Shown here one piece after another: positions 28,541 to 47,854 of a stretch of DNA of 64,000 nt (the stretch's first letter is position 1; every line of letters starts with the position of its first letter). Both the position numbers and the translations under genes were made by a program. The DNA lies in NCBI RefSeq assembly GCF_001623075.1, contig NZ_LMCF01000048.1, positions 1 through 64,000 of the forward strand, given 5' to 3'. The notes below the pieces were generated by a model that saw nothing but the letters and a program-made list of their open reading frames with translations, was not told the DNA's origin and did no database searches. Source of the DNA: Pseudovibrio sp. Ad37 (lineage in GTDB: Bacteria > Pseudomonadota > Alphaproteobacteria > Rhizobiales > Stappiaceae).

Positions 28541-29554
28541 TCAGGCTTGAGGAACGAGCCTGACCTGCTCATAGGCCTCATAAAACTCTGCAAACATCTC
28601 CTGAATGCCTCGTATGGGAACACCAAGGCTGTCGCGCTTGCTGAAGTCAAAGCGCGTTGACGGTTCCGGATCTCTGCCAAGTGGGGCAGGCAGCGCCTCC
28701 AGCGGCACGTACTCGGCAATTTCCTGATAAATCCGACGCCAACTCCAACTGCCGCTCACAGCAAAATATCGTCCGGAGGCCTCTGCCTGTTCCAATGCAG
28801 CCAATGACATCTTTGCAAGATCCTGCGGGGAGGTGAGGGACATGGATCCGGCTGGAACTGTGCTGTGCCAGCCTGTTTTGCCGTGCCGCAGTTTTGCAAG
28901 AAAGCTGAGGACATGACCTTTCAAATGCGACTGCAGGAGGGGCGCGCCCACCATCATACTTGGCAAGAAAGTGCAAAGCTTCATGCCATGTTGCTCGGAG
29001 AATTCCTCTGCCACTGCTTCCATTCGTGTCTTCTGTGCCTGCGCATATTTCTTTTGCTGAATCTGTATTTCGGCATCTGAAATGTCCTTGTTCTCCTGCT
29101 TTTCAAAGGAGGGTGTGGTTGGTTCTGCGGAGGCTGTGCTGGAACAGAGCACTGCTGTTTTAACGCCTTGCCGATGTGCTGCTTTCAGGATGTTCAGACA
29201 AGCTTGTTCTGCAGGTTGGATGATCTCTTTCAAGCCGCGCTCACGATCCAGCTCCGCAGCGGGCGTCCCGTCTACACCGTGTTTGATTGTTGGAATGCAG
29301 GCGATGAACACAGCCTTCGCTTGTGTCATCGGCGCATCGAACCTTTCAGAGTTGGATGTATCTGCTGAAAACAGGTGCAGCCGTTCTGCTGCGCCGGGCA
29401 AACGCATCAGGCCACTAACTTTATCAAGCTGGGAAATGTCGCGCATGGTGCCGTTGACGCGATAGCCGCGGGCGAGGGCTTCTTTGACCATGTAAGCCCC
29501 TGCCAGCCCGCTGGCTCCTGCAACGCAAATGGTTTTGATTTCAGTACCCCTCAT
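28541..29554 (-). CDS. NAD(P)-dependent epimerase/reductase (extended SDR, NmrA-like)
   Basis: A 337-residue enzyme with the N-terminal nucleotide-binding motif VAGASGLAGAYMVKEAL (GxxGxxG, about residues 9-25). The extended-SDR Tyr-Lys pair appears in modified form (KKYAQAQKTRMEAVAEE), and the usual substrate-domain PSMMVG segment follows. Dihydroflavonol-reductase-like proteins are the nearest relatives I can name; substrate unknown. ATG 29554 has GGAGGG seven bases upstream. It is divergent from tdaF across 326 bp carrying repeated LysR-type boxes, so it is a candidate member of the TDA regulon. Converges with the LacI gene. Confidence 0.8.
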   Translation of the reverse strand: MRGTEIKTICVAGASGLAGAYMVKEALARGYRVNGTMRDISQLDKVSGLMRLPGAAERLHLFSADTSNSERFDAPMTQAKAVFIACIPTIKHGVDGTPAAELDRERGLKEIIQPAEQACLNILKAAHRQGVKTAVLCSSTASAEPTTPSFEKQENKDISDAEIQIQQKKYAQAQKTRMEAVAEEFSEQHGMKLCTFLPSMMVGAPLLQSHLKGHVLSFLAKLRHGKTGWHSTVPAGSMSLTSPQDLAKMSLAALEQAEASGRYFAVSGSWSWRRIYQEIAEYVPLEALPAPLGRDPEPSTRFDFSKRDSLGVPIRGIQEMFAEFYEAYEQVRLVPQA

Positions 29555-29636
29555 CAATCCCTCCAGTTCCAGCAGCCTGATGGCTCATCTGAATGGAACC
29601 ATGCCAGCAGTACATTCTCATTGCACATCGGAAATT

Positions 29637-29687
29637 CTGAGGCATACCCTCAGTAAATCTGAGAGGTCGTCCTCAGCAAACCTGAGG
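29637..29687. promoter_or_regulatory. Cluster of LysR-type boxes between epimerase gene and tdaF
   Basis: Five half-sites in alternating orientation: CTGAGG (29637), CCTCAG (29648), CTGAGA (29659), CCTCAG (29671) and CTGAGG (29682). Each neighbouring pair is 11-12 bp apart. CCTCAG-N5-CTGAGG is a T-N11-A palindrome, the classic LysR binding form. Related boxes occur at 34141-34201 and 44295-44321. TdaA, the LysR activator encoded at 45.3 kb, is the natural binder (inference). Confidence 0.7.
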
Positions 29688-29880
29688 AGAGCATTTCAAA
29701 GAAACAATTGGAATGTGGGGCATGATTTGAGGTCATCTGACCACCAGAAAAAGACACCGCGCGATGAGCGGGCCAAGGTGCAGTCAACAACCTCCCCTAG
29801 GGTTCCGTCGCTCATCCAAAGGCGCCAATCGCGCGGCACCTCCATCATCTTGAAATGGATTTTACAGAGAGGATTTTTCC

Positions 29881-30480
29881 ATGGTCACCAATGACACTCC
29901 CGACAAAGCCCGCATTCTGATTGGGGCGAGCGCATCTCTGGATGCGACTCTGCTGCCCAACTATCTGCGCGAGATCAAGAATTCGATTGATTGCACTCTC
30001 ACCGCCATGTTCACACCCAATGCCATCAACTTTGTGAACATGGACAGCATCGCGCTGTTCGTGGACCGGGTGATCTGCGGAGATGATCCGAAGGACTGGT
30101 CTACCGACAAACCGGGACGTATCGCAGCCGAGCACGATATTCTCGCCGTGATGCCAGCAACGGCCAATACGCTGTCTGGTGTTGCCAATGGATCTTCACT
30201 CAACCGACTGACCACCGTCATTCTGGCAGCTGAGTTTCCGGTGCTCTTCTTTCCGGTGATGGGCGGACCCATGTGGAAGAAAGCCTCCGTCAGACGCAAT
30301 GTGGCGCAGATCCGCGAGGATGGTTACGAGGTGTGTGATCCGGTGTGGCGTGAGAATTTTGACCCGCATATGGGCAAGATCCACGGTCACCAGTCCTTGC
30401 CAGACCCTGAGGTTGTGGTGGAGCAGATCAAGAAACATCTGCCTCAATATCAGGTTCGCAGAGAGCTTGAGCTGAGCTAA
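29881..30480 (+). CDS. tdaF: TdaF, flavoprotein of TDA biosynthesis (PPC-decarboxylase-like)
   Basis: A 199-residue member of the HFCD family of FMN-dependent cysteine decarboxylases, related to phosphopantothenoylcysteine decarboxylase (Dfp/CoaC). Visible features: IGASASL near residues 12-18 (FMN phosphate loop), VMPATANTLSGVANG (the conserved PA-x-AN-T motif) and FFPVMGGPMW (the PxMN-like substrate clamp, here with Gly-Gly). TdaF is one of the six genes first defined as needed for tropodithietic acid, with a proposed role in handling the sulfur. AGAGGA precedes ATG 29881. It is separated from tdaA-E by about 9 kb, as tdaF is also apart from tdaA-E in Phaeobacter, and has LysR boxes upstream. 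Confidence 0.85.
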   Translation: MVTNDTPDKARILIGASASLDATLLPNYLREIKNSIDCTLTAMFTPNAINFVNMDSIALFVDRVICGDDPKDWSTDKPGRIAAEHDILAVMPATANTLSGVANGSSLNRLTTVILAAEFPVLFFPVMGGPMWKKASVRRNVAQIREDGYEVCDPVWRENFDPHMGKIHGHQSLPDPEVVVEQIKKHLPQYQVRRELELS

Positions 30481-31229: not shown

Positions 31230-32495
31230 CTAGCGGCTGCCTGCACATTTCTTGATGTCGCTGATTTGCTTCAGAGGCTGCAAAGAGGTCTCTGCAACGT
31301 AAGAGCCAATCTGGTAGCCCAACATGTCGCCAACAGCGTTGGAACGGCGGTAGTGAACGCCGCCGAGAACGCGGGATTCTGACTCTTCCTCAGCAAATTG
31401 CTGGAAGCTGACATAGTCTTTGGAAAGACCGCCCTTGCCGTTGAAGGTGAAGGTCATTTTGCCGTCGCCGAAGACGGCTTCCATGACTTCCTGAGCCGCG
31501 CTACCGCTGGTGCAATGCTGACATGGATATTCAGGATGCATTGGCGCAGGCACCAGAGAGCTCCACTCCAAATCGGCCTTAAGAGTTGGGTGCTTATAGG
31601 TCTTGCCCAGAGCTTCCATTGCGGTTTGCGGACGCCACAACGCGTACTCATACTTTGCGTTGAAACCAGCAACCAGTGTGTCCGTCAGTGCAAGGTTGAG
31701 AAGCGCCAGTGTGCGGGCTTCTTCCAGCATGGACAGGTCACAGGACGCGCTGCTTTTGCGGGCGATCTGGTTCCAGGCACCGGAGCCGGAGCCAGCATGA
31801 AGCTTGGCGATGAAGACGTTGGCCTCATTAGTCTGTGTTTCCTTGCCGCCCAACTTTACGACTTCACTCAGACCACGCTGATACTGCATGCTCTCTAGAG
31901 CCGGAGGTGGCGGCACACGGAAATGCGTTGCAGAGGACAGAACAAATGGCTTCATCTCACGAATTTTCGGTGCAACCATCTGGCGTTTAGACGTTAGCTG
32001 ATACACACCCGCTTCTGCTGGACCCGGCGTGTAATCTGTCGAAAAGTTTGCGTTGTCTGATGCGCGCGCTGCCAGAATTTGCTCCGCAACAGCTTGGCCC
32101 AGAGCAATGCCGGACTGAGGGCTCTTCAGGCTTGCAAGGCGCTCCTTTGCTGCAATTTCCAACTCCGCTTTACGCTCTGGCATAAGGGTCGACAGAACAT
32201 GCAGGGCGGCCTGAGTGACGGCTGCTTGCGCAGATGCATCCGGATTGGTTGAGCCAGTGTAAGCGTAAGGAGCGTAGGTGCCCTCGACTGCGTTTGCGGC
32301 ATCGAACATTGCAGTATGCAAAATTGTCAGGGCGCGCTGGCGTTTGGCACCTGGCCACTTTTCAGCGTTGAAAAGGCCCATAGCGGTGCCTTGCCAGTCA
32401 GCAGCCAATTCTGCTTTGGCGGCTCCACCAGTAATCACAAGCGCCAGAGCGCCGCTGTAAGCAATTGTCTTCAACCAAGTAAATCGGGTCGTCAT
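31230..32495 (-). CDS. Vanadium-dependent haloperoxidase-family exported protein (PAP2 fold)
   Basis: A 421-residue protein. A signal peptide of about 28 residues (hydrophobic ALALVITGG, cut near AAKA) precedes a PAP2/haloperoxidase-type helical domain. Anion-pocket motifs in order: KYEYALWRP (Lys and Arg), PEYPCQHCTSG (His327) and SRVLGGVHYRR (Arg and catalytic His). Most relatives read PSGH where this protein has Cys325-Gln326-His327. It could be a haloperoxidase or a non-specific acid phosphatase-like enzyme in the periplasm. ATG 32495 has GAGG nine bases upstream. It lies within the TDA locus, downstream of the SLC13 gene on the same strand. Confidence 0.8.
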   Translation of the reverse strand: MTTRFTWLKTIAYSGALALVITGGAAKAELAADWQGTAMGLFNAEKWPGAKRQRALTILHTAMFDAANAVEGTYAPYAYTGSTNPDASAQAAVTQAALHVLSTLMPERKAELEIAAKERLASLKSPQSGIALGQAVAEQILAARASDNANFSTDYTPGPAEAGVYQLTSKRQMVAPKIREMKPFVLSSATHFRVPPPPALESMQYQRGLSEVVKLGGKETQTNEANVFIAKLHAGSGSGAWNQIARKSSASCDLSMLEEARTLALLNLALTDTLVAGFNAKYEYALWRPQTAMEALGKTYKHPTLKADLEWSSLVPAPMHPEYPCQHCTSGSAAQEVMEAVFGDGKMTFTFNGKGGLSKDYVSFQQFAEEESESRVLGGVHYRRSNAVGDMLGYQIGSYVAETSLQPLKQISDIKKCAGSR

Positions 32496-32608
32496 ACTAA
32501 AACCTCGCAATTTGAAAACGGTTATAGCTAGGAATGGAAATTCGCTTTGCACAAATCGAAAGAATGGAAGGCGGGCCTCAGAATTTGTGTGGGCCCGTCT
32601 GAAGATGC

Positions 32609-34060
32609 TTAAAGAAATCCGAGCAGGTACCACCACAGCATGTCGATCGGGACAAGCAGGAACAGGCTGATCGCAAACAGCGTCAGACACAGTTTGATCA
32701 CGGCCTTCGGCGGCAGGTTTCCAACCTGAATGGCGGCGACCAGTGGCGGCGCCTGAAACGGCAGGAACACATTGGAAAACGCCATAACCTGCGTCATCAA
32801 AACAGTCTGCAAGGGCAGGCCAGTGGCATCGGCCAAGTCCCCGGCAACCGGTGTCATCACAGCTGGCACACCCGGCAGGTTTGTTGCCATGGCAACCAGC
32901 GTTGATAGGCCAGTGAGAACGGAGAGGTTCCAAATTGGAGTGTCCTGCGCAAAACCTGCTTTGCCGCCAACAGCCTGAACCAAAGCCTCACCCAGTCCGG
33001 CGACTGAGATGACAGCCCCCAGCCCCATGATGCCCGCGACGAACATCAGGGAGCCATAGCTCAGGTCTTGATTGATGCAGGTTTTGGAGGTCAGCTTGGC
33101 ATTGGGCCAGAAGCAGGCCAGAGCCGCCGCAAGGCCAACCCATGCCGGGCCAATTGGATGCAGGCTGTCCGTCAGCCAGAAAATAAGGCACAGGGCCAGA
33201 ATGATCATCAGGCGCCGTTCAGGAGCACTAACTGGTGGTACCTCCTCTGTGGTCTCATGCGCGTCCTGAGGAAGCTTGTCCGGGAACAGGACCAGTGTCA
33301 GACCGATAAGGATGAGTGATTTCAGGATGCCCAGAACCGGGAAGTTCAGACGCAAGTAATCCCAATAGGAAATGCTGAGGTCATACAGACTCTCGCTCAT
33401 CCCCGCGAGGATCATGTTGGGGGCGTTGGCAGGCAAAATGGTGAACGCCGGAGCGAAGGTCGCAAAGGCCGCCGCACAAAGCATACCCGTACGCCCGTTG
33501 GAGCCGGGTTTGAAGCCGATCTGCGCAGCAAGGGCGGAGATCACCGGCAGCAAAATCATGATACGGCCAATGGAAGAGGGCACCACAAACGCCAGCGCCA
33601 CACTGAAGGCAACAATGCTGGAGACCAACCCGGCATAGCTGTTGAGCGGCAAACGCATCAGCAGCACGGCGGCTCGTTTGTCCAGCTTGGTGTGCTTGAT
33701 GGAAGCTCCAAGTACGAGGCCTGCGAACAGCAGCCAGAAGGTTGAGGTCTGGAAGCCGGAGAATACCACTTCCGGCGGGGCAATTCCGATTACGATGGCA
33801 ACGAAGAAGAAGGCGAGCGCGGTCCAGTATTCCGGCACCACACCCGTTGCCCATAGGCCGAGACAACCAACGGATAGGACCGCAGCAACGGCCATGCCAG
33901 CAGGCAGATAAGCGGAGGCCAGAAGGCCCGCGATTGTGACGGCAATCGCCACTCCAAGAAACTGCCAGGTCTGTTTGGTGTTAAAGGAGGATTTTATTTT
34001 TTCGGGCGTGGGACTGAGCCCGGAGGCCGGAGCTGTGTCGTGCTGGGTGTGATCTGTCAT
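32609..34060 (-). CDS. SLC13/DASS-type anion transporter
   Basis: A 483-residue membrane protein with about 12 hydrophobic segments and the anion:Na+ symporter layout. Two re-entrant-like segments are visible (VVPSSIGRIMILLPV in the first half, TNLPGVPAVMTPV in the second, where the family's Ser-Asn-Thr-type motif is changed). The hydrophilic N-terminus is about 45 residues. Family members import dicarboxylates, citrate, sulfate or other oxyanions. ATG 34060 chosen; upstream TTG/GTG starts would run into regulatory boxes. Boxes like those before tdaC and tdaF lie 81-141 bases upstream, suggesting control by TdaA and a role in precursor or sulfur supply, or in TDA transport (inference). Confidence 0.85.
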   Translation of the reverse strand: MTDHTQHDTAPASGLSPTPEKIKSSFNTKQTWQFLGVAIAVTIAGLLASAYLPAGMAVAAVLSVGCLGLWATGVVPEYWTALAFFFVAIVIGIAPPEVVFSGFQTSTFWLLFAGLVLGASIKHTKLDKRAAVLLMRLPLNSYAGLVSSIVAFSVALAFVVPSSIGRIMILLPVISALAAQIGFKPGSNGRTGMLCAAAFATFAPAFTILPANAPNMILAGMSESLYDLSISYWDYLRLNFPVLGILKSLILIGLTLVLFPDKLPQDAHETTEEVPPVSAPERRLMIILALCLIFWLTDSLHPIGPAWVGLAAALACFWPNAKLTSKTCINQDLSYGSLMFVAGIMGLGAVISVAGLGEALVQAVGGKAGFAQDTPIWNLSVLTGLSTLVAMATNLPGVPAVMTPVAGDLADATGLPLQTVLMTQVMAFSNVFLPFQAPPLVAAIQVGNLPPKAVIKLCLTLFAISLFLLVPIDMLWWYLLGFL

Positions 34061-34140
34061 AGCGACCTGTGATTCTGATTTTGAAAAATGAGGTGCCAGA
34101 ACTATGATTTTTGCACTTGCCAATAATCCAATCGATTTAT

Positions 34141-34201
34141 CAGAGGCATAGCCTCAGCATTTTCGAATATGCTGATCAGGGAGACCTCAGAAAAACTGAG
34201 G
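34141..34201. promoter_or_regulatory. LysR-type boxes upstream of the SLC13 transporter
   Basis: CAGAGG-CATAG-CCTCAG (34141-34157) closely matches CTGAGG-CATAC-CCTCAG at 29637-29653. The second box, CCTCAG-AAAAA-CTGAGG (34185-34201), is a perfect inverted repeat with T-N11-A geometry. They lie 81-141 bases upstream of the transporter start, and 123 bases before the divergent TrmO-like gene. Confidence 0.7.
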
Positions 34202-34323
34202 TGCTCCATTCGATAAATCGAATTTACTCGGATATCGTCTCCAAGTATCGATCTGTAGTTGAGGTAGATTTTGGCTTTGGAGACGTTAAGTGTTTAATTT
34301 TGCAACCTATTACGGCTTCACAA

Positions 34324-34782
34324 ATGAATAATCAGCAGGAAACCACGGTGTCTTCAGGCATCATCATGAACCCGATTGGCTTTGTGCGCTCAGGCTTCTC
34401 AGAAACGCGCGAATGCCCGAAATCCAGTCGTCGCAACCCTGCCCAGAGCCAACTGGAAATTGCCTCTCCTTATGCGGATGCGCTTTTGAACATCACGATG
34501 GCCTCTCATCTCTGGGTGATGTACTGGCTGCACCACTCTGACGGAACCGCGCTTGTTCGGCGCGCCCGTGGAGAGGAAGCGGCGCGTGGTGTTTTTGCCA
34601 GCCGTTCACCCAACCGCCCGAACCCGATTGGTTTGAGCTCGGTTGAATTAATCAGACGGGACGGCAACGTTTTGACAGTGAGTGGATTGGATTGCATTGA
34701 TGGCACGCCAATTCTGGATCTCAAACCCTATGTCCCTATAGAAGACCACCAGCCAACTGCGCAAATTGCGTGGCAGCCATGA
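34324..34782 (+). CDS. TrmO/TsaA-like protein (short form)
   Basis: A 152-residue protein with the UPF0066/TsaA beta-barrel signature: MNPIGFVRSGF at the start, the S-adenosylmethionine-contact motif GVFASRSPNRPNPIGLS and GLDCIDGTPILDLKPYVP. E. coli TrmO, which methylates N6-threonylcarbamoyl-adenosine in tRNA, is longer by a C-terminal domain that is absent here. Start uncertain: ATG 34324, or GTG 34348 with AGGA upstream. It shares the box-bearing gap with the SLC13 gene, so it may be a specialised member of the TDA locus or the tRNA enzyme of the cell. Confidence 0.82.
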   Translation: MNNQQETTVSSGIIMNPIGFVRSGFSETRECPKSSRRNPAQSQLEIASPYADALLNITMASHLWVMYWLHHSDGTALVRRARGEEAARGVFASRSPNRPNPIGLSSVELIRRDGNVLTVSGLDCIDGTPILDLKPYVPIEDHQPTAQIAWQP

Positions 34783-34837
34783 TCCGGAACCTGAGGATGC
34801 GCATGTTGCCGTGCGTCCCGCTCAGAAAGTCTGAGAC

Positions 34838-36400
34838 ATGCACATCTTTCACCAACCCCTTGTGCGCGTTGCAATCGCAGCTGTCGCGGCTCTGCTGCTG
34901 ACAATTGCTGCAGGGATTGCTGGTCCCATAAACCAGCTTGTTATAACCGATGCCCGCGGAGACCGTGGGATGCTGGCGCCTTATGTTCATGGCAGAAACG
35001 GTATTGCTTATCTCTACACCACATATGTTTTTGATAGTCTGTTAAGCCAATCGAAAGACGGTGAGCTGGTCCCGGCTCTGGCACGGCACTGGACTGTTTC
35101 TAAGGATGGTTTGACCTGTGATGTGTATCTAGACCTGCGGGCATCCTGGCATGATGGGCAGCAGGTTACAGCGGCAGATGCAGCTTTCACCTTCAGTTAT
35201 ATGAAGGAGCATCCTTACGTCTTTGTCTCCGTCGATAATGTGAGAGAAGCCGAGGTTGTCTCCCCTGGTCACCTTAAGCTCTCTCTCAAAAAGCCTGATG
35301 CCGGGTTGCTGAACGGGCTTCTGCTTTCCATGCCAGTCCTGCCAAAACACGTCTATCAGGGCGTGGTGGAACCACAGCGATTTGCGGAGCCGGATGCAGT
35401 TATTGGCAGTGGGCCTTACCGCCTTGTTGAGTACAGTAAGGCGCAAGGGCGCTATGTGCTGGAAGGGAATACGGATTATTATCTGGGCAAACCAAAGTTT
35501 AAGCGCATTGCTATTGTGAAGATGGCGACAGATGCGGCGTTGAGGGCGGTTCAGGCCGGGGACATCGACGTGATTTCCTACTTGCCTCCTGATCGTCTGG
35601 AACAGGCCGAGGCGATTGGTCTGAATGTTGCCAAGGCGTATAGCCACCATTCCCTGCGGCTTGGCTTCAACCATAGCGGACGCTTTAACGACAAGTCACT
35701 TCGCCATGCGATTGCTTATGCAATTGACCGGACTGCCATCATCCAAACAGTTTTCCAAAAAACGGCAGAGGTGGCAGATACTGGCTTCATTCAGGAGGAG
35801 TCGCCCTGGCATTCTCAGGAGAAGCATTCAGAGTATTCCTTTAATCCTCAACGATCTTCCGATCTTCTGATCTCCAAAGGCTGGGATCGAGGAGAAGATG
35901 GGCTGTGGTATCGTGACGGAGAGCAGGTTGCATTGCGCCTTCTTGCCAGCAGACGTGAGAGCAAAACAGCGAAAGTTCTTGCAGAGCAGCTTGAGACGTT
36001 TGGCATAGAGCTGGAGGTTCGCATTTTAGAGCGAGCCGCGCTTCAGGACAGTCTGTCTGAGGGTAATTATGATCTGGCCCTTTACTCCTCCGGTACTCTT
36101 GGTGATCCGAATGGAATTATGCGCCGTGTTTTTGGAAGCAAGTGGGCGAGTGATGGTTATGACGGCCAAGAGTTGAAGGCGCTTGTGATAGCGCAGTCTG
36201 TTGCGACCACCTTGAAGGAACGGCAGGAAATTCTGGATAAATTTCAAGAGGTTTATTCTCAGGAGCTTCCTGCCTACGCCATCGCAAACCCTCATATGGT
36301 GACTGCCTACAATGACAAGCTCTCCTCCCTCCAGTTTATGCCAGGGGGAGTGGCGATAGGCGTGCCTTCAGCACTGCATAAATCCTATCTGGTTGATTGA
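34838..36400 (+). CDS. Peptide/nickel-type ABC transporter binding protein
   Basis: A 520-residue exported protein of the SBP_bac_5 family (DppA/OppA/NikA class). A signal peptide or lipid-free anchor (VAIAAVAALLLTIAAG, residues about 11-26) precedes the long two-lobed receptor with ELVPALARHWTVSKDGLT, IGSGPYRLVEYSKAQGRY and LRHAIAYAIDRTAI, all family hallmarks. It heads a four-gene operon with two permeases and a dual ATPase. The ligand is probably a short peptide or peptide-like or metal complex; a role in the TDA locus is only suggested by position. Confidence 0.88.
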   Translation: MHIFHQPLVRVAIAAVAALLLTIAAGIAGPINQLVITDARGDRGMLAPYVHGRNGIAYLYTTYVFDSLLSQSKDGELVPALARHWTVSKDGLTCDVYLDLRASWHDGQQVTAADAAFTFSYMKEHPYVFVSVDNVREAEVVSPGHLKLSLKKPDAGLLNGLLLSMPVLPKHVYQGVVEPQRFAEPDAVIGSGPYRLVEYSKAQGRYVLEGNTDYYLGKPKFKRIAIVKMATDAALRAVQAGDIDVISYLPPDRLEQAEAIGLNVAKAYSHHSLRLGFNHSGRFNDKSLRHAIAYAIDRTAIIQTVFQKTAEVADTGFIQEESPWHSQEKHSEYSFNPQRSSDLLISKGWDRGEDGLWYRDGEQVALRLLASRRESKTAKVLAEQLETFGIELEVRILERAALQDSLSEGNYDLALYSSGTLGDPNGIMRRVFGSKWASDGYDGQELKALVIAQSVATTLKERQEILDKFQEVYSQELPAYAIANPHMVTAYNDKLSSLQFMPGGVAIGVPSALHKSYLVD

Positions 36401-36497
36401 TCAGCTGGACACCCATTGTCAGCCGCCTCCGGGTGGCTGGCACGAGACAACCAAAAACAGGCAGGCCGTTCTTGTGGTACCTCCGATTATTTTAAAC

Positions 36498-37451
36498 ATG
36501 CTGTCTGGCCTTGGCGTTCGCCTCCTGGTGTTTGCACTGCTGGTTTTGCTGGTGTTCTTTCTGCCACGAATGCTTCCAGGGGATCCTGTTGAGGTGTTTC
36601 TTTCCTCTGATCTCTCACGCAACCTCAACGGTGCTGAGAGTGCTGAGCTCCGCGCTCAGTTCGGCTTAGCGGGTGATTGGCCGCAGCAGCTTGGCGTTTA
36701 CCTTTGGGATCTTATCAGGGGTGATCTGGGATACTCAGTTCCACATGCAGCACCTGTTTCGGAACTGCTCAGAGCGTCTATTCCATGGACCTTGCTTCTG
36801 ATCTCCTGCGCTGCGCCGATCTTTCTTTTTGTAGGCGCTGCCGGAGGTATTGAAGCTGGCAAGGCGCCAGGGGCTTTCTTTGACAGGATTGCGACTGGTG
36901 TAGTGATGGTTGTCGCCAGCATTCCGCCATTCACCTCTGCCGTGCTGTTGCTGCTTGCTTTCGGCATTTTGTGGCCCGTATTGCCTTCCGGTGGATCAGA
37001 GCCTTTTTTTCCCAGCAGCAACCCTTTGCAGCGGGATTTTGATATTGCCCGCCACGCTGTGTTGCCTGTGCTGGCACTGTCGCTGCACGAAATATCCCGG
37101 TTCTATTTTTTGGCACGAGGAGAGGCGATCACCCTGTCTCAGCGGCCTTTCATTCTCAATGCATGCGGGCGTGGCATCAAAGGCTGGCGCCTGCGCACGA
37201 CTTATTACGGGAGAAGCCTGTTTCCGGTTTTTCTGGCAAGGATGAGTGATGCGCTGACTGGTTTGTTTGGTGCCGTCCTGTTCGTTGAGATTGTGTTCTC
37301 CTATCCCGGAACGGGGCACTTAATTTACAATGCGATTTTGGATCGTGATTACATTTTGTTGCAGGGCGCGGTCATAGTTATGGCTGGTTTGGTTCTGCTG
37401 TTGAACTGGATCATTGATGCAGTCGCAACAAGTCTGGCGCGTAGAGGGTGA
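36498..37451 (+). CDS. Peptide-type ABC transporter permease (DppB/OppB-like)
   Basis: A 317-residue inner-membrane protein with about six helices. The start LGVRLLVFALLVLLVFFLP leading into MLPGDPVEVFL is the usual DppB N-terminus. The cytoplasmic coupling loop follows (ARGEAITLSQRPFILNACGRGI), and the C-terminal half carries FSYPGTGHLIYNAILDRDY. ATG 36498 fits the family's N-terminus; a TTG at 36393 overlapping the binding-protein stop gives an odd hydrophilic extension. Partner of the next permease. Confidence 0.85.
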   Translation: MLSGLGVRLLVFALLVLLVFFLPRMLPGDPVEVFLSSDLSRNLNGAESAELRAQFGLAGDWPQQLGVYLWDLIRGDLGYSVPHAAPVSELLRASIPWTLLLISCAAPIFLFVGAAGGIEAGKAPGAFFDRIATGVVMVVASIPPFTSAVLLLLAFGILWPVLPSGGSEPFFPSSNPLQRDFDIARHAVLPVLALSLHEISRFYFLARGEAITLSQRPFILNACGRGIKGWRLRTTYYGRSLFPVFLARMSDALTGLFGAVLFVEIVFSYPGTGHLIYNAILDRDYILLQGAVIVMAGLVLLLNWIIDAVATSLARRG

Positions 37452-37455
37452 TCTT

Positions 37456-38301
37456 ATGCTTGGTTATTGGTCACCTATCACGCAAAGTACTGGCTTTATC
37501 TCACGGGGAGCGATTGCTGCTGCGGGTGTGCTGGTTATGGCAGGCTTTGCTTTGTCAGAGAGTTTACCCCAATACAAAACAAGCCCCGATGTCTTGCAGG
37601 CTCCGAGCATGGAGCATTGGCTTGGTACAAATGGGATCGGGCAGGATGTCTTTGTCGGCCTTGTAAGAGCTGCACCAATCACAGTTTTTCTTGCTCTTAT
37701 CACAGCCACCGCGGCGTTGGTGCTGGCTTTGGCTGCGTCCAGTCTGGCTGCGTTTGGCGGGTCGCGCATTCGTAGCGCGATCTTGCGACTGGTGGACGTG
37801 TTGCAGGTGATCCCGTCCATCCTGTTGCTGCTGTTGTTGGCGGCCTGGATACAGCCCGGTTTCCTTGGGCTTGTGGTGCTTTTGTCGCTAACTGGCTGGC
37901 ATGAAGATGTGCGCGTTGCACTGCCGATTTTACTGAGGGAGCTAACCCGCGAGAACGTGCATTTTGCGCGGCGCATGGGGGCCAGTCGCAGATATTGTCT
38001 ACGCCACCACATCCTACCCGCGATCTGGCCCGCAATCGTTGGTTTGTTTTTGCAAAATGTACGGCAGGCAGCCCTCAAAACTGCAGGTTTCGGGTTCCTG
38101 GGTCTGACTGATCCAAGGCTGCTGACCTGGGGCAGTATGATACAGGATTCAATGGACTATCTTTATACGGAGGCATGGCTCTGGCTCCTGCTTCCGCCAG
38201 CGGGTGCACTTTCTCTGTTTCTCGTTGGCATTTTGATTATTGGTGAAGGCTACATGTCAAACGGCAGCCTCAGCGGAAAGGAACATCATGATCCGCGTTG
38301 A
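37456..38301 (+). CDS. Peptide-type ABC transporter permease (DppC/OppC-like)
   Basis: A 281-residue inner-membrane protein: one N-terminal helix, then a domain starting EHWLGTNGIGQDVFVGLVRAA (the HxLGTDxxGRD signature of DppC permeases), then five helices with the coupling loop ENVHFARRMGASRRYCLRHHI. GAGGGTG lies five bases before ATG 37456. The C-terminus overlaps the ATPase start by 14 bases. Completes the channel of the peptide-type importer. Confidence 0.87.
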   Translation: MLGYWSPITQSTGFISRGAIAAAGVLVMAGFALSESLPQYKTSPDVLQAPSMEHWLGTNGIGQDVFVGLVRAAPITVFLALITATAALVLALAASSLAAFGGSRIRSAILRLVDVLQVIPSILLLLLLAAWIQPGFLGLVVLLSLTGWHEDVRVALPILLRELTRENVHFARRMGASRRYCLRHHILPAIWPAIVGLFLQNVRQAALKTAGFGFLGLTDPRLLTWGSMIQDSMDYLYTEAWLWLLLPPAGALSLFLVGILIIGEGYMSNGSLSGKEHHDPR

Positions 38302-39787
38302 GCAGCTTAATCTTTACTATGGTCGCCAACCTCTGCTTGAGGACGTCTCTTTTGAGATCCACAAAGGGCAAACTCTGGCGGTCATTGGAGAACCCGGCGG
38401 TGGCAAGACGAGCCTCGCCCGCTCTCTTATGGGTCTCATTCAAGGGCGCAGGCTGGCAGCGGATGAACAGCCATTGGCTTCCAGTCATTTCAGCTGGAAT
38501 GGAGAGGCCTGGCTGGGAGACATGAATGTCCTGCGTTCATCACGCGCACAATTGCAAGGCATGCGGGGATGTTCTGCAGGCTTGATCGTACAAGCGCTGT
38601 CGGATGCATTGAACCCTCATTTGACCGTTCTGCAACATGTGCAGGAGATGCTGCAGGCACATGGGCTTTATGAGCGGGATGCACTTGAGGAATGTGCCAG
38701 AGGGAATATTCCAGAGCGTCTTTTACATCGTTACCCCTCGGCTCTGAGCGGCGGCGAAATTCAACGTGTGCTGACGGTGCTTGCGCTGGCAAACTCGCCT
38801 GAATTTTTGATCATGGACGAACCGACTGCCGCGTTGGACAGTTTCAATCGGGAAATCGCTATTCGCTCGTTTCAGGCCGGGAGTGAGGACCGCTGCCAAA
38901 TGCTGATCACGCATGACATTGAACTGGCACGCCGCCTGGCAAGCCATGTGGCTGTGCTGCGCAAAGGCAGATTGACTGAGATCGGGACAGCTGAAGAGGT
39001 GCTCGACAGGCCGCGCAGCATCTACACCCAGCAATTGCTGAAACTGAGGCGAAACGCGCATAACTCAGCCCCGATCCTGGCGATTGGAGAAGGGGGGTAT
39101 CCGGAGTTGGAGGCACGTAGTGGTCATGGATTGACCCTTGATAAACTGCATCACAGCTTTGATGGAAGAGCCTTGCTCTCCAACATTTCAGCATTCGTGC
39201 CAGCTGGCCGGTGTCTTGCGATATTGGGGGGAAGCGGAAGCGGCAAAACCACGCTTGCGAGGTTGTTGAGCGGCTATGAAACTGTGCAGGACGGCTTTGT
39301 TTATTGGCAGAACGAGGAAGGGCGCGCCAAGTCCGTGGTGGCGTTGATACCACAGCACCCGCACCGCGCCATGGCCTGTCATTTTACGGTCTATGAGGTC
39401 CTGAAAGAAGCGCTGATGCTGTCTGGTGGAGATCAGTCTGAACTCACGCGGTTGCTGGAGCGGGTTGGGTTGCCGACGGATTCAGACTTCCTGCGCCGCA
39501 AAACCAGAAAGCTCTCCGGCGGTGAAGCACAAAGACTGGTGATTGCACGGGCGCTGGCAATACGGCCTCAGTGTCTGGTAGCTGATGAACCGACCTCAGC
39601 TCTGGACATGCAGGCCCGCAGTCAGGTGCTGGAAATCCTGCGCAGTGTGATGCGCAGCAAGAAGATGGCTCTGGTGCTTTTCACCCACGATCACGCCGCC
39701 GCCCGTTCGCTGGCAGACAAGGTCTGTCATTTGGAGCAGGGCGAACTCATTTGCAACCAAGCCCCGGAAACAAACGCTGCGAGCTGA
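38288..39787 (+). CDS. Peptide-type ABC transporter, dual ATP-binding protein
   Basis: A 499-residue protein with two ABC cassettes, equal to DppD and DppF fused. First: GEPGGGKTSLARSL (Walker A, about residues 35-48), [24 protein letters not shown]. Second: GGSGSGKTTLARLL, LSGGEAQRLVIARAL, CLVADEPTSALDM. ATG 38288 has AAAGGA upstream. It energises the two-permease channel. Fused DppDF proteins are common in alphaproteobacteria (known). The operon ends at a hairpin directly after it. Confidence 0.9.
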   Translation: MIRVEQLNLYYGRQPLLEDVSFEIHKGQTLAVIGEPGGGKTSLARSLMGLIQGRRLAADEQPLASSHFSWNGEAWLGDMNVLRSSRAQLQGMRGCSAGLIVQALSDALNPHLTVLQHVQEMLQAHGLYERDALEECARGNIPERLLHRYPSALSGGEIQRVLTVLALANSPEFLIMDEPTAALDSFNREIAIRSFQAGSEDRCQMLITHDIELARRLASHVAVLRKGRLTEIGTAEEVLDRPRSIYTQQLLKLRRNAHNSAPILAIGEGGYPELEARSGHGLTLDKLHHSFDGRALLSNISAFVPAGRCLAILGGSGSGKTTLARLLSGYETVQDGFVYWQNEEGRAKSVVALIPQHPHRAMACHFTVYEVLKEALMLSGGDQSELTRLLERVGLPTDSDFLRRKTRKLSGGEAQRLVIARALAIRPQCLVADEPTSALDMQARSQVLEILRSVMRSKKMALVLFTHDHAAARSLADKVCHLEQGELICNQAPETNAAS

Positions 39788-41725: not shown

Positions 41726-41735
41726 CTTCATCAAA

Positions 41736-42932
41736 TCATGCTGTTTCAAGCAAGCGTTCTTCGCGCACGGGCGCTGCTTCTTTTGCCGCTTTCGCCTCCA
41801 GCCGTTTCATCTGGCTGATGATGTTGCGGCGGTGCATTTCCTCAGTGCCGCCCACAGCGCAAAACGCCAGTGCATCGCGCAGGAAGGTCGAAACCTCGCC
41901 TTGGTGATAGCCTTTGGTGCCGTAGAGCTTGAGCAGGTCAATCGCACCACTGGTGATCGCTTCAGCCCCAACCAGCTTGGCAATGGAGCAGGTCATGCCG
42001 GCTTCCGGCGCACCGGACAGAAGCTGCTGGAGTGCGCCATAGGCCGTCCACTTGGCGGATTCTGCGGAGATGCGCATGTCGGTGAGTTTCTTCTGCACGT
42101 ACTGGAACTCAAGCACTGGCACTTCGAAGGTCTGACGCTCCTGAGCGTAGCGCATCGCTTCCTTCAGCATCGGCTCAATCATCCATGCAGAAACCAAACC
42201 GTAATACAGCCTGCCGAGGGAGACGAAGGTGATCAGGTTGCGCAGGCCCTTGCCGGGAACGCCAAGCAGATCACCGTAATGCAGCGGGATATTGGTGAAC
42301 TTCATCGGCCCGGTTGGCAAATCCAGATTGCCAAGCTTCTGGTCGTAGTCGCCAACTTCAAGGCCCTTGGTGCCTGCATCCAGCAAAATGAGCGAGATAC
42401 CGTCACGCGCATGACCATCCAGCTTGCACACCACAAGCGTGAAGTCCGCCACGGGCGCATGGGCAATGTTGTACTTGGCACCATTGAGCATGAACGTCTC
42501 ATTTGGTCCCGGTGTCAGCACAGAGGAGGTAGAGCGCACATCTGTGCCCGTATCAGGGTCCGCAATCGCAGTTGCGCTGAGCTTCCCTTTCAGGATACGG
42601 CCAAGATAATCCTTCTTCTGCGCTTCCGTGCCGAACAGGTTGAGTGCATGAACCATGCCTGCCTGTGCGATGACAGAAAGCAGAATACCCGGCGTGCGCA
42701 CAGAGCATGCAAGACCTTCCAGCGCAGCGGTGAAGTCCCACCAGTCTGTGCCTGCGCCGCCATACTCAGCCGGGACGATGATCTTCCAGAGACCGGCTTC
42801 TAAAAGCCGGTCCCATGTGTCCTGATCAAATGCCTGCTTGCCAGCGTGAAGCTCTGAGTGGTCAATCTGGCTGCCAATTTGAGCATACTTTGCTCGCAGA
42901 GCCCGTTGACGTTCATTCCATTGTAGATCCAT
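41736..42932 (-). CDS. tdaE: TdaE, acyl-CoA dehydrogenase-like flavoenzyme of TDA biosynthesis
   Basis: A 398-residue acyl-CoA dehydrogenase-fold flavoprotein. The N-terminal helical domain (about 1-125), the beta domain with ATAIADPDTGTDVRSTSS (FAD/CoA loop, about 130-150), and the C-terminal helical domain with LKLYGTKGYHQG and FCAVGGTEEMHRRNI are all visible. TdaE acts on the seven-membered-ring CoA thioester derived from phenylacetate breakdown, and work on TDA producers assigned it oxygenase activity with CoA-ester cleavage and ring epoxidation. It is the last gene of tdaCDE, 32 bases after tdaD. The position where ordinary dehydrogenases carry the catalytic Glu could not be aligned here. 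Confidence 0.88.
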   Translation of the reverse strand: MDLQWNERQRALRAKYAQIGSQIDHSELHAGKQAFDQDTWDRLLEAGLWKIIVPAEYGGAGTDWWDFTAALEGLACSVRTPGILLSVIAQAGMVHALNLFGTEAQKKDYLGRILKGKLSATAIADPDTGTDVRSTSSVLTPGPNETFMLNGAKYNIAHAPVADFTLVVCKLDGHARDGISLILLDAGTKGLEVGDYDQKLGNLDLPTGPMKFTNIPLHYGDLLGVPGKGLRNLITFVSLGRLYYGLVSAWMIEPMLKEAMRYAQERQTFEVPVLEFQYVQKKLTDMRISAESAKWTAYGALQQLLSGAPEAGMTCSIAKLVGAEAITSGAIDLLKLYGTKGYHQGEVSTFLRDALAFCAVGGTEEMHRRNIISQMKRLEAKAAKEAAPVREERLLETA

Positions 42933-42964: not shown

Positions 42965-43399
42965 TTAAGCTGGCTGATGATGTGCGGCAGGTTCTTGCAG
43001 AGCTGCAACTGCAGTCTTGAACTCATCCGGCACCGGATAGGTTGCCTGCTTTTCGTAATCAAACATCACGTGAGTGGACGCTGCATTGGCAACCACGCGG
43101 CCATCTGCATCGCCAAGACGCATTTCATGCTGCATTTCAAAGCTTTTGCCACCAAACTTCGTCACACGGCTCAGCACAACCAGATGGTCGCCGTAAAGAG
43201 CTTGAGAAACGTAGTCGCAAGAGGTCTTCACCATGATGTGCGGCAGCTTTTCAGACTTAGGCAGCTTGAGCAAATCATGCATGTATTCCAGGTAAGCGGA
43301 CTGCATGTAATCGTAGTAGATCGGGCTGCTCACATGACCCATTGAATCTGTATCGCGGTAGCGGATGTCGATTGGTGTTTCATAAGCTTTCTGTGTCAT
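42965..43399 (-). CDS. tdaD: TdaD, acyl-CoA thioesterase of TDA biosynthesis
   Basis: A 144-residue 4HBT-type hot-dog thioesterase: the N-terminal IRYRDTDSMGHVSSPIYYDYM carries the active-site Asp/His region, followed by YLEYMHDLL and a second strand block with MRLGDADGRVVANA. It probably removes CoA or handles thioester intermediates in TDA formation. ATG 43399 has GGAGGG upstream and overlaps the end of tdaC by 20 bases, indicating coupled translation. Part of the tdaCDE unit. Confidence 0.88.
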   Translation of the reverse strand: MTQKAYETPIDIRYRDTDSMGHVSSPIYYDYMQSAYLEYMHDLLKLPKSEKLPHIMVKTSCDYVSQALYGDHLVVLSRVTKFGGKSFEMQHEMRLGDADGRVVANAASTHVMFDYEKQATYPVPDEFKTAVAALQEPAAHHQPA

Positions 43400-44030
43400 G
43401 AAATTCCCTCCTGTTGGGGTTTTGAAAATCATTGGTGAATGAAGGCTGGGTCTGTGTTGAGGCCTGCAACGGGCCATGAATGGTGAAGCCCATAGGCACG
43501 GGGCCGTGCTTTGTCAGGACTGTCAGAGAAAACTCGTTGGCGGCGCACAGCGTGGTGATGCAGCCATCAGCCTCGCCTTTGGCGCACACAGCCGCGGCTT
43601 GCGCGTTGCTGGTGACGTACTTGCGCTCAATAGAGGCCGGGATCAGTTTTTCCGGTGCCGGATGCGTTGCGCAAAGGGCAGGTGTTTTGCCGGTAGAAGA
43701 GGCCAGAACCATGTTGTCGGTGTTCATGATGAACACGTCCATCAGTTTCAGTTGGCCGATGTGCTCGTAAATAATCGAATGAAGATGCGGGTAGGCAACG
43801 ACACTCAGCAAAACGGACTTGCGGCATTGAGCAACGGCTTGCGCTGCAATTTCCATGGTCGGGTGAAGAAAGACTTCGGTGGTTTTGCAGTGACGTTGTA
43901 CCCATGTCAGAGCTGCTCTCTCGCAGTTCGTGCCAGTCGGCCCCAGAGTGTGAACTTGTCGGACCCAGTCAAAGGACAGTGGGTCTATTCCTTTGGCCAA
44001 ATAGTCCGAAGCTTCAATATGTGCATCCAT
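43380..44030 (-). CDS. tdaC: TdaC, prephenate dehydratase-like protein of TDA biosynthesis
   Basis: A 216-residue protein with a single prephenate-dehydratase-type domain: LGPTGTNCERAA at residues about 29-40 (where dehydratases have GPxGTxSxxA), then THPAPEKLI and VTSNAQAAAVCAKGEADGCITT in the second lobe. It lacks the ACT regulatory domain of PheA, and its layout resembles BacA-type prephenate decarboxylases, so it is not a phenylalanine-pathway enzyme. TdaC is required for TDA; the reaction is not settled. First gene of tdaCDE, with LysR boxes 265-291 bases upstream; TdaA is known to bind the tdaC promoter in a related producer. Confidence 0.87.
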   Translation of the reverse strand: MDAHIEASDYLAKGIDPLSFDWVRQVHTLGPTGTNCERAALTWVQRHCKTTEVFLHPTMEIAAQAVAQCRKSVLLSVVAYPHLHSIIYEHIGQLKLMDVFIMNTDNMVLASSTGKTPALCATHPAPEKLIPASIERKYVTSNAQAAAVCAKGEADGCITTLCAANEFSLTVLTKHGPVPMGFTIHGPLQASTQTQPSFTNDFQNPNRREFHDTESL

Positions 44031-44294
44031 AAATTCTCTGATCCTTCACTTGGGAAGAAAGACTGAAAAATGCCGATGCAGGATTTGCGCGAGGCGCACC
44101 CCCTGACAAACTGCGTGGCTTGTCGTTGTTCTTATGCATGGCAGAGCGGTAACACGCGCAGACTCCAATGAATCTCCGTTTGCTCTGTCGGTCTTGAGGT
44201 GAATTTTGTTCCTCGCGTCCAGTAATATTTTTTCGTGTAACCCTATGGAGCCGGAAAGGTTTGCTTTGAACAAGCTGAAAAAACTGATGGCTTC

Positions 44295-44321
44295 CCTCAG
44301 GATAGATGAGGAATGCCTCAG
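44295..44321. promoter_or_regulatory. LysR-type boxes upstream of tdaCDE
   Basis: CCTCAG (44295), then ATGAGG (44306), then CCTCAG (44316): two overlapping inverted repeats with the two CCTCAG elements 21 bp apart, two helical turns. They lie between the tdaB terminator and the 264-base untranslated leader of tdaC (44031-44294), which holds nothing else I recognise. Related boxes occur before tdaF and the SLC13 gene. Probable TdaA target. Confidence 0.72.
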
Positions 44322-44444: not shown

Positions 44445-45143
44445 CTAGGCGGCAACAGCTTCGCTGAGAGCTTTGCGGCCCATGTAATCATGAAGATCCA
44501 ACATGCGTTCAAACCACAAATTGACGGGGTCACTCGGAGCAAGAATTGGATCAGGGCAGCACACTTTGCACCACTGCAAGGTCCCGAACAGAACATAATC
44601 TGCATGCATCGCTCTCTCACCACCGAACCAATCCTGGTTGGTGAGCAGGTCGCGCACAGGGTTCAACTTCTCCGGCAAAGTGCTCAGTTCAGCGTCTCGC
44701 CCTGCGTAGACCTCTTCGAGAGGTTTTCCGAACCGTTTTTCACGTGCAGGCCGGAAGTAGGCGCGGTCGGCATCACTCATGATGTTGTACATATCCATCA
44801 CAGCAATCACAGCCAAAGTCGGGTGCAGGACGGTTTTGCAGTAGCTCTCCACAAAACGGGAAAGCTGAAGACCACCAGCGCCATCAAATAGGCTGGGTGC
44901 CTCCTGATAGGTCTCTTCCAGATACTCGGCGATCTCAAAACTATCGCCTAAAAGCGTGCCTTGGTCGTTGAGCACAGGAACGCTGGTGAAAGATCCGTCT
45001 TCAATATTGGTAATGTCGCCAAAGGAAACTGGCTTCAGGTCAAAATCGAGGCCCTTGTGCTTCAAGGACATCATAATTTTCCAGACATGCGGGGAGTAAT
45101 GTTGCCCGGAGGCTCCGCTGAGGCTGTAAAGAAGTCTTTGCAT
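44445..45143 (-). CDS. tdaB: TdaB, glutathione S-transferase-like protein of TDA biosynthesis
   Basis: A 232-residue glutathione S-transferase-fold protein. The N-terminal thioredoxin domain has YSPHVWKIMMSLKHKGLDF and the cis-Pro/glutathione motif SVPVLNDQGTLLGDSFEIAEYL (about residues 53-75); the C-terminal helical domain follows. It resembles beta-etherases of the LigE/F type. TdaB is required for TDA and is thought to help introduce sulfur, possibly through glutathione or a sulfur donor (proposed in the literature; mechanism not visible here). It has its own terminator, so it forms a separate unit from tdaCDE. A weak half-box, CCTCAG, lies at 45192-45197, 49 bases upstream. Confidence 0.88.
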   Translation of the reverse strand: MQRLLYSLSGASGQHYSPHVWKIMMSLKHKGLDFDLKPVSFGDITNIEDGSFTSVPVLNDQGTLLGDSFEIAEYLEETYQEAPSLFDGAGGLQLSRFVESYCKTVLHPTLAVIAVMDMYNIMSDADRAYFRPAREKRFGKPLEEVYAGRDAELSTLPEKLNPVRDLLTNQDWFGGERAMHADYVLFGTLQWCKVCCPDPILAPSDPVNLWFERMLDLHDYMGRKALSEAVAA

Positions 45144-45325: not shown

Positions 45326-46258
45326 TCAGGAGGCGATGAGCGCCGCCTCTAGTGTTCGGTCGTCTTGAAACGAAAGGCTGGTGCAATTGTCTGTCGCCAG
45401 AATGGAGCGAACCGCCGCAATCACCGGGTCTTCTTTCCGGCAGGAAAGGTGCGCAAACAACACGCGGGCTGATTTTTGCACCTGAGAGAGCAAGACGATA
45501 TCACCCTGGTTCTCTTGTGGGTTTGTTGAGTTGGCATGAACGAGCCCGATACCAACACCGCTGGCAATCAAAGCACGTGTAACCCCCTCATCATCCACAT
45601 TGATCACCCGCTTGGGCCTGATACCGTGCGTGTCCAGAAGATCCCTTGCCACACGCCCGCAACAGGAGTCGCCACTTGGGTAGATCCACGGCACGCTTTC
45701 AAGTGCCTTCCAGTTCACCTCAGCCGCAACGGGCACAAGATCCGCAGGGGCTGCGAGGTAAACGCAGAAATTGGAGATCTCCAAGGTAGACAGTCCGGCG
45801 TCATCCTCACCTGTTTCCGTGTAAAATCCGGCGTCGAGGCTGCCATTGCGAATGCCTTCCAGCACCTTCACAGAGGGGCGGTGTTGCAGCTCAACTTCAA
45901 CCTCGGGGAACTCCTGAGACATAGCCGCAAGCAGATTGCTCACAACGCCTGTGCTTGAGTTGCGGCCAGCGCCGAGGGTCAGGCTACCAGCAAGACTGCC
46001 GCGCAAGCGGGATGCTTCTTCCAGAAATTTCTGGTGCCGATCCAGCAATTGGTGTGCTTCCGTGAGGAGGCGTTGCCCGTCGGGTGTAACAGCCATTCCA
46101 CGCGGTGTGCGTTGAAAGAGCGTTAATCCCAATGTCTCTTCCATATTTTTGATATGCGCACTGACAGCTGGCTGACTGCGAAAGAGCAATTCTGAAGCTT
46201 TGGTTATGCTACCTTCGCGCGCGACCGTCACGAAGGTTTTGAGTTGATGAATGTCCAT
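45326..46258 (-). CDS. tdaA: TdaA, LysR-type activator of TDA biosynthesis
   Basis: A 310-residue LysR-type regulator. The N-terminal winged helix (MDIHQLKTFVTVAREGSITK, then the recognition helix RSQPAVSAHIKNMEETLGL, residues about 1-60) is joined by a linker helix to a periplasmic-binding-type effector domain (about 90-290; a CCGRVARDLL segment has paired cysteines at about 200). TdaA activates the tda genes by binding the tdaC promoter region (known in Ruegeria). The position, size and order tdaA-tdaB-tdaCDE match. Its own upstream region holds no copy of the CCTCAG box that I could find. Confidence 0.88.
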   Translation of the reverse strand: MDIHQLKTFVTVAREGSITKASELLFRSQPAVSAHIKNMEETLGLTLFQRTPRGMAVTPDGQRLLTEAHQLLDRHQKFLEEASRLRGSLAGSLTLGAGRNSSTGVVSNLLAAMSQEFPEVEVELQHRPSVKVLEGIRNGSLDAGFYTETGEDDAGLSTLEISNFCVYLAAPADLVPVAAEVNWKALESVPWIYPSGDSCCGRVARDLLDTHGIRPKRVINVDDEGVTRALIASGVGIGLVHANSTNPQENQGDIVLLSQVQKSARVLFAHLSCRKEDPVIAAVRSILATDNCTSLSFQDDRTLEAALIAS

Positions 46259-47849: not shown

Positions 47850-47854
47850 GAGTA

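Follow-up and report, generated by a model that had tools for sequence, protein, structure and literature searches.

A shared 44-bp element at six promoters suggests an extended TdaA regulon in the tropodithietic acid cluster of Pseudovibrio

Described regulation and the cluster in the window

The LysR-type regulator TdaA is said to interact with the tdaC promoter (work of Geng and Belas, 2011, J Bacteriol 193:4002). The present analysis concerns the same regulator and the same promoter, and adds a proposed operator sequence together with five more promoters assigned to it; part of this operator may already be known from the TdaA-tdaC binding work.

According to the accessible parts of published reports, the resistance genes tdaR1-R3 come under joint control by TdaA (PMC7497051), loss of tdaB in P. 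piscinae lowers the paaZ2, paaK2 and tdaF transcripts as well as the TdaC, TdaD, TdaR3, PaaZ2 and TdaF proteins (PMC9942592), and expression of the tda genes of a Pseudovibrio strain increases jointly at the entry into stationary phase and is not induced by tropodithietic acid (TDA) or C10-AHL (PMC4278212). The cluster of P. inhibens has been set as PGA1_262p00800-00980 (PMC12363192, accessible part), so the gene neighbourhood was already known, and in the available description of Janthinobacterium TDA clusters a Na+ transporter gene is only listed beside the cluster (PMC13163973). In the literature searched, partly available as excerpts and mostly without subscription papers, we found no description of a TdaA motif or a wider TdaA regulon, nor of the control of the SLC13, vanadium-dependent haloperoxidase-like (VHPO), ABC or epimerase genes; the words SLC13, transporter and epimerase do not occur in PMC7497051.

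A comparable system is PltR of the pyoluteorin operon, whose lys box spans 22 bp with a T-N11-A dyad at -74 to -53 (PMC3382589, accessible part). The likeness lies in a LysR activator of an antibiotic operon and in product-linked induction. Unlike PltR, which in that account has one divergent promoter and one box, six promoters would share tandem boxes here, and the regulator gene in the window is not divergent from the target promoters.

The window, by which we mean the whole analysed stretch of 64,000 nucleotides from Pseudovibrio sp. Ad37 (genome of 5,875,058 bases in 224 contigs), carries a TDA cluster of the Pseudovibrio type at 28.5-46.3 kb. The cluster contains tdaA, tdaB, tdaC-D-E, three tdaR genes, an ABC transporter with a TrmO-like gene, an SLC13 transporter, a haloperoxidase-like gene, a DUF2938 gene, tdaF and an epimerase gene. 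By homology to the Phaeobacter cluster all six of tdaA-F are present, and the TdaE protein has 99% identity to those of Pseudovibrio ascidiaceicola and Pseudovibrio sp. Alg231-02. The genes are as follows.

45326..46258, minus strand: tdaA, LysR-type regulator (Pfam LysR_substrate 3.8e-27, HTH_1 7.2e-23, both above cut-off)
44445..45143, minus strand: tdaB
43380..44030, minus strand: tdaC, first gene of a presumed operon (from open reading frames and annotated Phaeobacter homologues)
42965-43477, minus strand: tdaD, presumed tdaC operon
41736-42932, minus strand: tdaE, presumed tdaC operon
41126-41749, minus strand: tdaR1, presumed tdaC operon (this and the next two named from position and the accessible part of PMC7497051)
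40458-41129, minus strand: tdaR2, presumed tdaC operon
39826-40446, minus strand: tdaR3, presumed tdaC operon
34324..39787, plus strand: TrmO-like gene (start 34324 or 34366, end 34782) and ABC transporter (substrate-binding protein, SBP, 34838-36400; permeases 36393-37451 and about 37414-38301; ATPase to 39787)
32609..34060, minus strand: SLC13 or divalent-anion:sodium symporter-type transporter, ATG at 34060
31230..32495, minus strand: VHPO gene, ATG at 32495
30556-31086: DUF2938 gene, after the VHPO gene
29881..30480, plus strand: tdaF, flavoprotein (Pfam Flavoprotein 1.5e-15; 71% to the Phaeobacter gene)
28541..29557, minus strand: NAD-dependent epimerase/dehydratase-type gene (Pfam Epimerase 3.8e-14)

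TdaA has both the N-terminal LysR helix-turn-helix and the C-terminal substrate-binding domain of a LysR-type regulator. The SLC13 protein carries a symporter domain (Pfam Na_sulph_symp 5.4e-25, CitMHS 1.3e-24), and the VHPO gene is 63% to a Phaeobacter gene annotated as vanadium-dependent haloperoxidase, its Pfam VCPO_2nd match lying below the cut-off. We presume that tdaC-D-E-R1-R2-R3 form one operon, with tdaR1-R3 downstream of tdaE; resistance genes would thereby enter the TdaA regulon here much as in the co-regulation described for tdaR1-R3 (PMC7497051, accessible part). The epimerase gene is divergent from tdaF in Pseudovibrio and from paaZ-tdaF in Phaeobacter and Tritonibacter, where paaZ precedes tdaF and plasmids carry much of this gene set.

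A directional element at six promoters

An earlier note on this DNA had pointed to paired CCTCAG/CTGAGG half-sites before tdaC, between the epimerase gene and tdaF and before the SLC13 gene, and such pairs are indeed present at all three places. The tdaC region has CCTCAG at 44295-44300 and 44316-44321 and the one-mismatch form ATGAGG at 44306-44311; the epimerase/tdaF region (29637-29687) holds four exact half-sites and CTGAGA; and the SLC13/TrmO region has exact half-sites at 34152, 34185 and 34196 together with the one-mismatch CAGAGG at 34141-34146. The extra half-site at 44316-44321 is absent from that place in Phaeobacter sequences compared by eye. The window holds 57 copies of CCTCAG as such; shuffles average 37.9, and 0 of 100 reach the observed number. 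Its single copies lie mostly outside the three named regions. The five-base spacing had been said to give the T-N11-A palindrome of LysR regulators, which holds for CCTCAG-N5-CTGAGG but not for the opposite order, CTGAGG-N5-CCTCAG, at 29637-29653.

The whole genome was searched for the motif, as the same note had proposed. Exact copies of CCTCAG-N5-CTGAGG number two in 5,875,058 bases (29671 and 34185), both in the window, but with up to one mismatch there are 25 copies across the genome, compared with 2 for a reversed-pattern control. Dinucleotide shuffles reached the observed palindrome 2 times in 2000 for the tdaC region and never in 2000 for either the SLC13/TrmO or the tdaF/epimerase region. 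When 35 intergenic regions were treated in this way (2000 shuffles each), 16 were never reached and ten more were reached by 1 to 10 shuffles. The nine weaker ones were P. gallaeciensis tdaC (27 shuffles), Pannonibacter tdaC (38), G544 SLC13 (41), G015 SLC13 (43), T. mobilis SLC13 (99), G468 (221), T. mobilis tdaC (911), Epibacterium tdaC (1198) and Epibacterium SLC13 (1895). At the orthologous Phaeobacter promoters the palindrome is present upstream of tdaC and in the TrmO/SLC13 and epimerase/paaZ-tdaF intergenic regions, and the exact form is found in eight of 16 Pseudovibrio genomes: six with a close TdaA (at least 83% identity) and TdaE, plus G006 and G012, where the copies lie at places with no tda homologue found. 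We rejected the bare palindrome as the unit, as exact copies occur away from tda genes (two in G006, four in G012, one in G010). A unit other than the bare palindrome was indicated by Tritonibacter and Epibacterium, which fail the shuffle test; at their tdaC and SLC13 promoters the strict palindrome is absent and only a looser composite was found.

With the promoters aligned in gene direction, the unit is 44 bp long and reads CCTCAG-N5-CTGAGG-N5-CNTCNG-(N5)-TCGATTTG. The T-N11-A dyad expected of a LysR operator is present in it twice: among 45 collected sites, columns 3-15 conform in 37, columns 25-37 in 40 and both registers in 32, while any other register occurs in at most nine. Conservation within the element peaks at T3, G14, A15, G17, T25 and C35-A37. 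Judged from sequence, the element is thus apparently two LysR boxes 22 bp apart that end in a -35-like TTG. If this TTG (columns 39-41) is the -35, the distal box would be centred near -65, which would match the PltR box, centred near -64 (PMC3382589, accessible part). Six such elements lie in the window; the ranks given are those in a scan of 127,914 window positions for which all true Pseudovibrio tda sites had been kept out of the training.

44268..44311, minus strand: tdaC-operon element, ending 237 bp before the tdaC start, rank 5 of 127,914; distal box CCTCAT-CTATC-CTGAGG (44295-44311), proximal box from CATCAG (44284-44289)
34125..34168, minus strand: SLC13 element, ending 64 bp before the ATG at 34060, rank 4; CTGAGG-CTATG-CCTCTG-ATAAATCGATTGG, with the distal half (ATTCGA) degenerate
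34185..34228, plus strand: element of the TrmO/peptide-type ABC operon, divergent from SLC13, rank 2; holds the perfect palindrome CCTCAGAAAAACTGAGG (34185-34201); orthologue at L035:24781-24824 (Phaeobacter)
29671..29714, plus strand: tdaF element (paaZ-tdaF operon in Phaeobacter), ending 166 bp before tdaF, rank 3; holds CCTCAGCAAACCTGAGG (29671-29687)
29621..29664, minus strand: epimerase element, back to back with the tdaF element, rank 6; TCTCAG-ATTTA-CTGAGG-GTATG-CCTCAG-AATTTCCGATG
32549..32592, minus strand: VHPO element, ending 53 bp before the ATG at 32495, rank 1; counterparts at L035:26457, L049:23712, L062:14730 and L066:3931

The earlier list of three sites was therefore incomplete, the VHPO and TrmO/ABC elements having been missed, and the phased half-site arrays that it described arise because two divergent pairs of elements lie back to back. 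Of the site placed upstream of the SLC13 gene, one part stands: this gene owns an element at 34125-34168, but the palindrome at 34185-34201 is to be assigned to the divergent TrmO/ABC promoter. As an SLC13 operator this palindrome was discarded, since its geometry suits only the TrmO/ABC direction and it is missing in the Tritonibacter stretch L049; there we found no TrmO/ABC element and no TrmO or SBP homologue. A part of the SLC13 element, TCTGATAAATCGATTGG, occurs exactly and once per genome in all six tda genomes and in none of ten others. Upstream of tdaA and tdaB there is no element (best scores 1.5 and 0.7). Two further features of these regions may be recorded. The tails of the back-to-back elements form an inverted repeat (ATCGATTTATC ... 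GATAAATCGA) in the SLC13/TrmO intergenic stretch 34130-34228. Between the tdaC element and the tdaC start lie 237 bp (44031-44267), a distance of 154-246 bp in 15 of 16 rows compared and of 95 in Paracoccus, several starts being placed by homology only; such a length suggests a long tdaC mRNA leader.

As a mechanism, we propose that TdaA, as the LysR-type activator of the TDA cluster, would bind all six elements. The distal dyad (CCTCAG-N5-CTGAGG, T3-N11-A15) would be the recognition site and the proximal dyad (CNTCNG-N5-TCGATT, T25-N11-A37), 22 bp or two helical turns downstream, the activation site, running into the TTG that resembles a -35. A TdaA tetramer may sit on both dyads and, on signal, recruit RNA polymerase, presumably through contacts at the -35. 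It could also be that TdaA occupies the distal palindrome only and that the proximal part (TCGATTTG) is a promoter hexamer or the site of another protein, a reading that we consider rather unlikely. The tail does end in TTG like a -35, and in the SLC13 sites it is nearly invariant though the distal half-site is degenerate; however, T25-N11-A37 (40 of 45 sites) repeats the distal geometry exactly 22 bp away, as would be the case for recognition and activation sites. The regulon would comprise tdaC-D-E-R1-R2-R3 and tdaF (with paaZ2 in Phaeobacter) for biosynthesis and resistance, and further the epimerase gene, the haloperoxidase-like gene, the SLC13 transporter and the TrmO/ABC-transporter operon, tdaA and tdaB being left outside control by the element.

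Conservation in other genera and co-occurrence with TdaA

All six elements recur in Phaeobacter, the epimerase one weakly, and subsets of them in Tritonibacter, Epibacterium, Pannonibacter and Paracoccus. It might be argued that the six-fold repeat is simply inherited through duplication or transfer of the cluster, with whole promoters conserved and no common binder. In keeping with this, the cluster is plasmid-borne in Phaeobacter and Tritonibacter, and its six Pseudovibrio versions are closely related. Yet of the 44 bases of an element, the window and P. inhibens share 28-33 (tdaC 31, SLC13 31, tdaF/paaZ 32, VHPO 33, TrmO 28), whereas in the flanks, 60 bases on either side, they share 14-25 of 60. 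Likewise, against T. mobilis the tdaC, SLC13, paaZ and VHPO elements keep 23-29 of 44 and the flanks 12-19 of 60. Moreover, the element is common to six unrelated genes on both strands with fixed spacing, and its conservation is concentrated at the peak positions given above. Inheritance without a common binder is in our view scarcely credible.

The positions of the elements were also recovered by matrix scans. With a first matrix of 21 tdaC, SLC13 and paaZ/tdaF sites from Pseudovibrio and Phaeobacter, the tdaC, SLC13, tdaF, VHPO, TrmO/ABC and epimerase elements are the six best of the window. When all true Pseudovibrio tda sites were removed, leaving 29 sites (three from TdaE-less Pseudovibrio), the six elements still took ranks 1-6 of 127,914 window positions with scores of 28.5-39.1; the seventh score, 23.7, overlaps the epimerase element, and the best of 40 column-permuted matrices reached 24.7. 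The leave-one-genus-out run on L040 likewise placed all six at ranks 1-6. With Phaeobacter left out, TrmO, VHPO, tdaC and SLC13 took ranks 1-4 in L035; in L056 paaZ came first and the weak epimerase counterpart second (10611-10654, score 14.5, permuted maximum 13.7), and in L085 five elements preceded the equally weak epimerase one (496-539, score 16.5, permuted maximum 12.3). With Tritonibacter and Epibacterium left out, paaZ, VHPO, tdaC and SLC13 were the four best in both L049 and L062, the SLC13 sites barely exceeding the best permuted matrix (18.2 against 17.0 and 15.1 against 14.9). In G468 the leave-out run recovered tdaC and SLC13, the VHPO site being weak (1.4). First matches stood before SLC13 in G006 and G015 and before TrmO/SBP in G012 in the leave-out runs, and before SLC13 in G127, which belonged to no training set. 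In Paracoccus the first match ends 52 bp before the first Met (9483) of a paaZ-matching open frame, and the Pannonibacter matches precede VHPO, a TonB-receptor-like gene, tdaC and SBP/ABC.

The scans have their weak sides too. With a promoter class left out, tdaF ranks 8 and SLC13 ranks 7 in the window and tdaC falls outside the top eight, tdaC being the most divergent site class. A tdaC-only matrix finds VHPO (rank 2), the epimerase (rank 3) and TrmO (rank 5) in the window, with tdaF outside the top six, and its best matches in L049 and L069 are non-sites. With the first matrix, ten control loci score up to 15.5, above the weakest held-out sites (3.3-13.6). Gammaproteobacterial TdaC-like matches were set aside: the annotated neighbourhoods in Pseudoalteromonas and Pantoea are not TDA clusters and the Proteus stretch carries no annotation. 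Their best scores with the first matrix (7.7, 15.5 and 3.5, respectively) were used as controls.

Two side observations belong here. In Paracoccus denitrificans (L139:6357-6400) and Pannonibacter (L141:6411-6454) the element is also found before a gene for a TonB-receptor-like protein, within the tda cluster or next to it; import of TDA bound to iron would be consistent with this. The Paracoccus protein matches Pfam TonB_dep_Rec_b-barrel (8.1e-33), and the Pannonibacter one was judged by eye from the translation. In G010 a second copy of the epimerase/tdaF promoter on another contig (L041 and L071, G010:C1:131822-131913) keeps both elements next to a shortened tdaF match and an epimerase gene.

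TdaA homologues (E<=1e-60) are rare, being found in 3 of 385 genomes of the class and 11 of 87 of the family, own genome included in both, and in 2 of 394 sampled from the Phaeobacter family. We compared their presence with that of the element, using a sequence-only model of 45 sites; many of these come from the searched genomes, and for this reason most weight lies on the leave-out runs. Only 150 first-look candidates were scored per genome in the 16-genome and nine-genome searches (of about 500-1300 in the 16). The 16 genomes gave 41 matches at E<=0.02, of which 36 fall in the six tda clusters, two at the second epimerase/tdaF copy of G010 and three beside TdaA-like genes (G006, G012, G015), with none elsewhere among the candidates scored. 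For the seven of these genomes without a TdaA homologue the best E was 0.21 or there was no match. Nine more genomes gave 25 matches at E<=0.02, all of them on the tda contig or, in G127, before SLC13. Under stricter filters, 1e-3 was reached by just two of 190 class genomes, G000 and G127, each of which has a TdaA homologue, and five small genomes at 0.0115-0.0414 were within chance expectation. Taken together, all 17 genomes that possess a TdaA homologue have a match below 1e-3, and not one of the 8 that lack it has a match below 0.2. Pseudoduganella (L065) was dismissed as a candidate: genes resembling tdaE and tdaD are present, but its best TdaA match is not a close homologue (28% identity, 7e-21) and there is no element match at E<=1. 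G013 has a TdaE-like gene (1.1e-80), no TdaA and no element (best E 0.61).

These data bear on the identity of the binder. Another regulator, such as the LuxR-type AHL receptor PgaR or the second LysR (46914-47915), might bind the element, with TdaA acting only at tdaC or upstream; we hold this to be quite improbable. PgaR does control tda expression in P. inhibens (PMC5429656, accessible part), the second LysR gene adjoins tdaA in the window and another one precedes tdaA in Phaeobacter, and a comparison of recognition helices did not discriminate between TdaA and the second LysR, the helices being similar. However, lux-type boxes are dyads of 18-22 bp, according to the accessible part of a review, whereas the element is a 17-bp dyad followed by a second, tandem T-N11-A box. 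The second LysR has no match in the Phaeobacter locus L035 at 1e-8, and in the gene tables of two Tritonibacter stretches, incomplete as these are, TdaA is the only LysR and the sole transcription regulator. Furthermore, the element tracks TdaA homologues into TdaE-less genomes.

An extended TdaA regulon, as the earlier note proposed it, is therefore very likely on comparative sequence grounds. Its idea of one regulator for all three regions gains support from the shared directional element, the orthologous Phaeobacter promoters and the co-occurrence with TdaA, and its inclusion of the transporter and the epimerase agrees with each having an element of its own, the Phaeobacter counterpart of the latter being weak. 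The published effects of the tdaB mutation and of TdaA on tdaR1-R3, cited above, point the same way. That TdaA controls the six window promoters through one tandem operator seems to us highly probable.

TdaA-like regulators without TDA clusters and implications

No TdaE match at 1e-60 was found in G006, G012, G015 and G127, the last being only 81% complete. The TdaA-like regulators of such TdaE-less genomes (L068, L069, L070, L140) are paired with element-bearing SLC13 or TrmO/SBP/ABC genes. In G015 and G006 the TdaA-like gene stands in tandem after an SLC13 gene (53-54% identity) that the element precedes; in G012 it is divergent from a TrmO/SBP/ABC operon that carries the element; and in G127 the element before SLC13 is on a different short contig from the TdaA-like gene, whose own contig (C144, L083) has no element. 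The boxes are CCTCAC-N5-(G/A)TGAGG in G006, G015 and G127 and CTTCAC-N5-ATGAGG in G012, with related tails.

TDA has been widely studied as a marine antibiotic and as a signal; for its control our analysis offers a proposed 44-base operator and six named targets that can be tested singly. Two candidate transporters would enter the regulon, neither of them tied to TDA control in the literature searched, as far as it was accessible, and their cargo may be TDA. The search model matched every one of the 17 examined genomes with a TdaA homologue, including the TdaA-transporter pairs of TdaE-less genomes. The data suggest that a single regulator, TdaA, turns on the making, resisting and moving of TDA together.

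It is tempting to go further, doubtful as the idea may be, and to suppose that the TdaA family is older than TDA biosynthesis: an ancestral sensor would have switched on an SLC13 or ABC transporter, would have been kept in non-producers, and its operator would have been recruited by producers. If this is the case, the original ligand would be a tropone-like or sulfur-containing acid. Producers would have come to use the operator at six promoters, and also at the TonB-receptor-like gene in Paracoccus and Pannonibacter, and non-producing relatives might notice, take up or tolerate the TDA of their neighbours.
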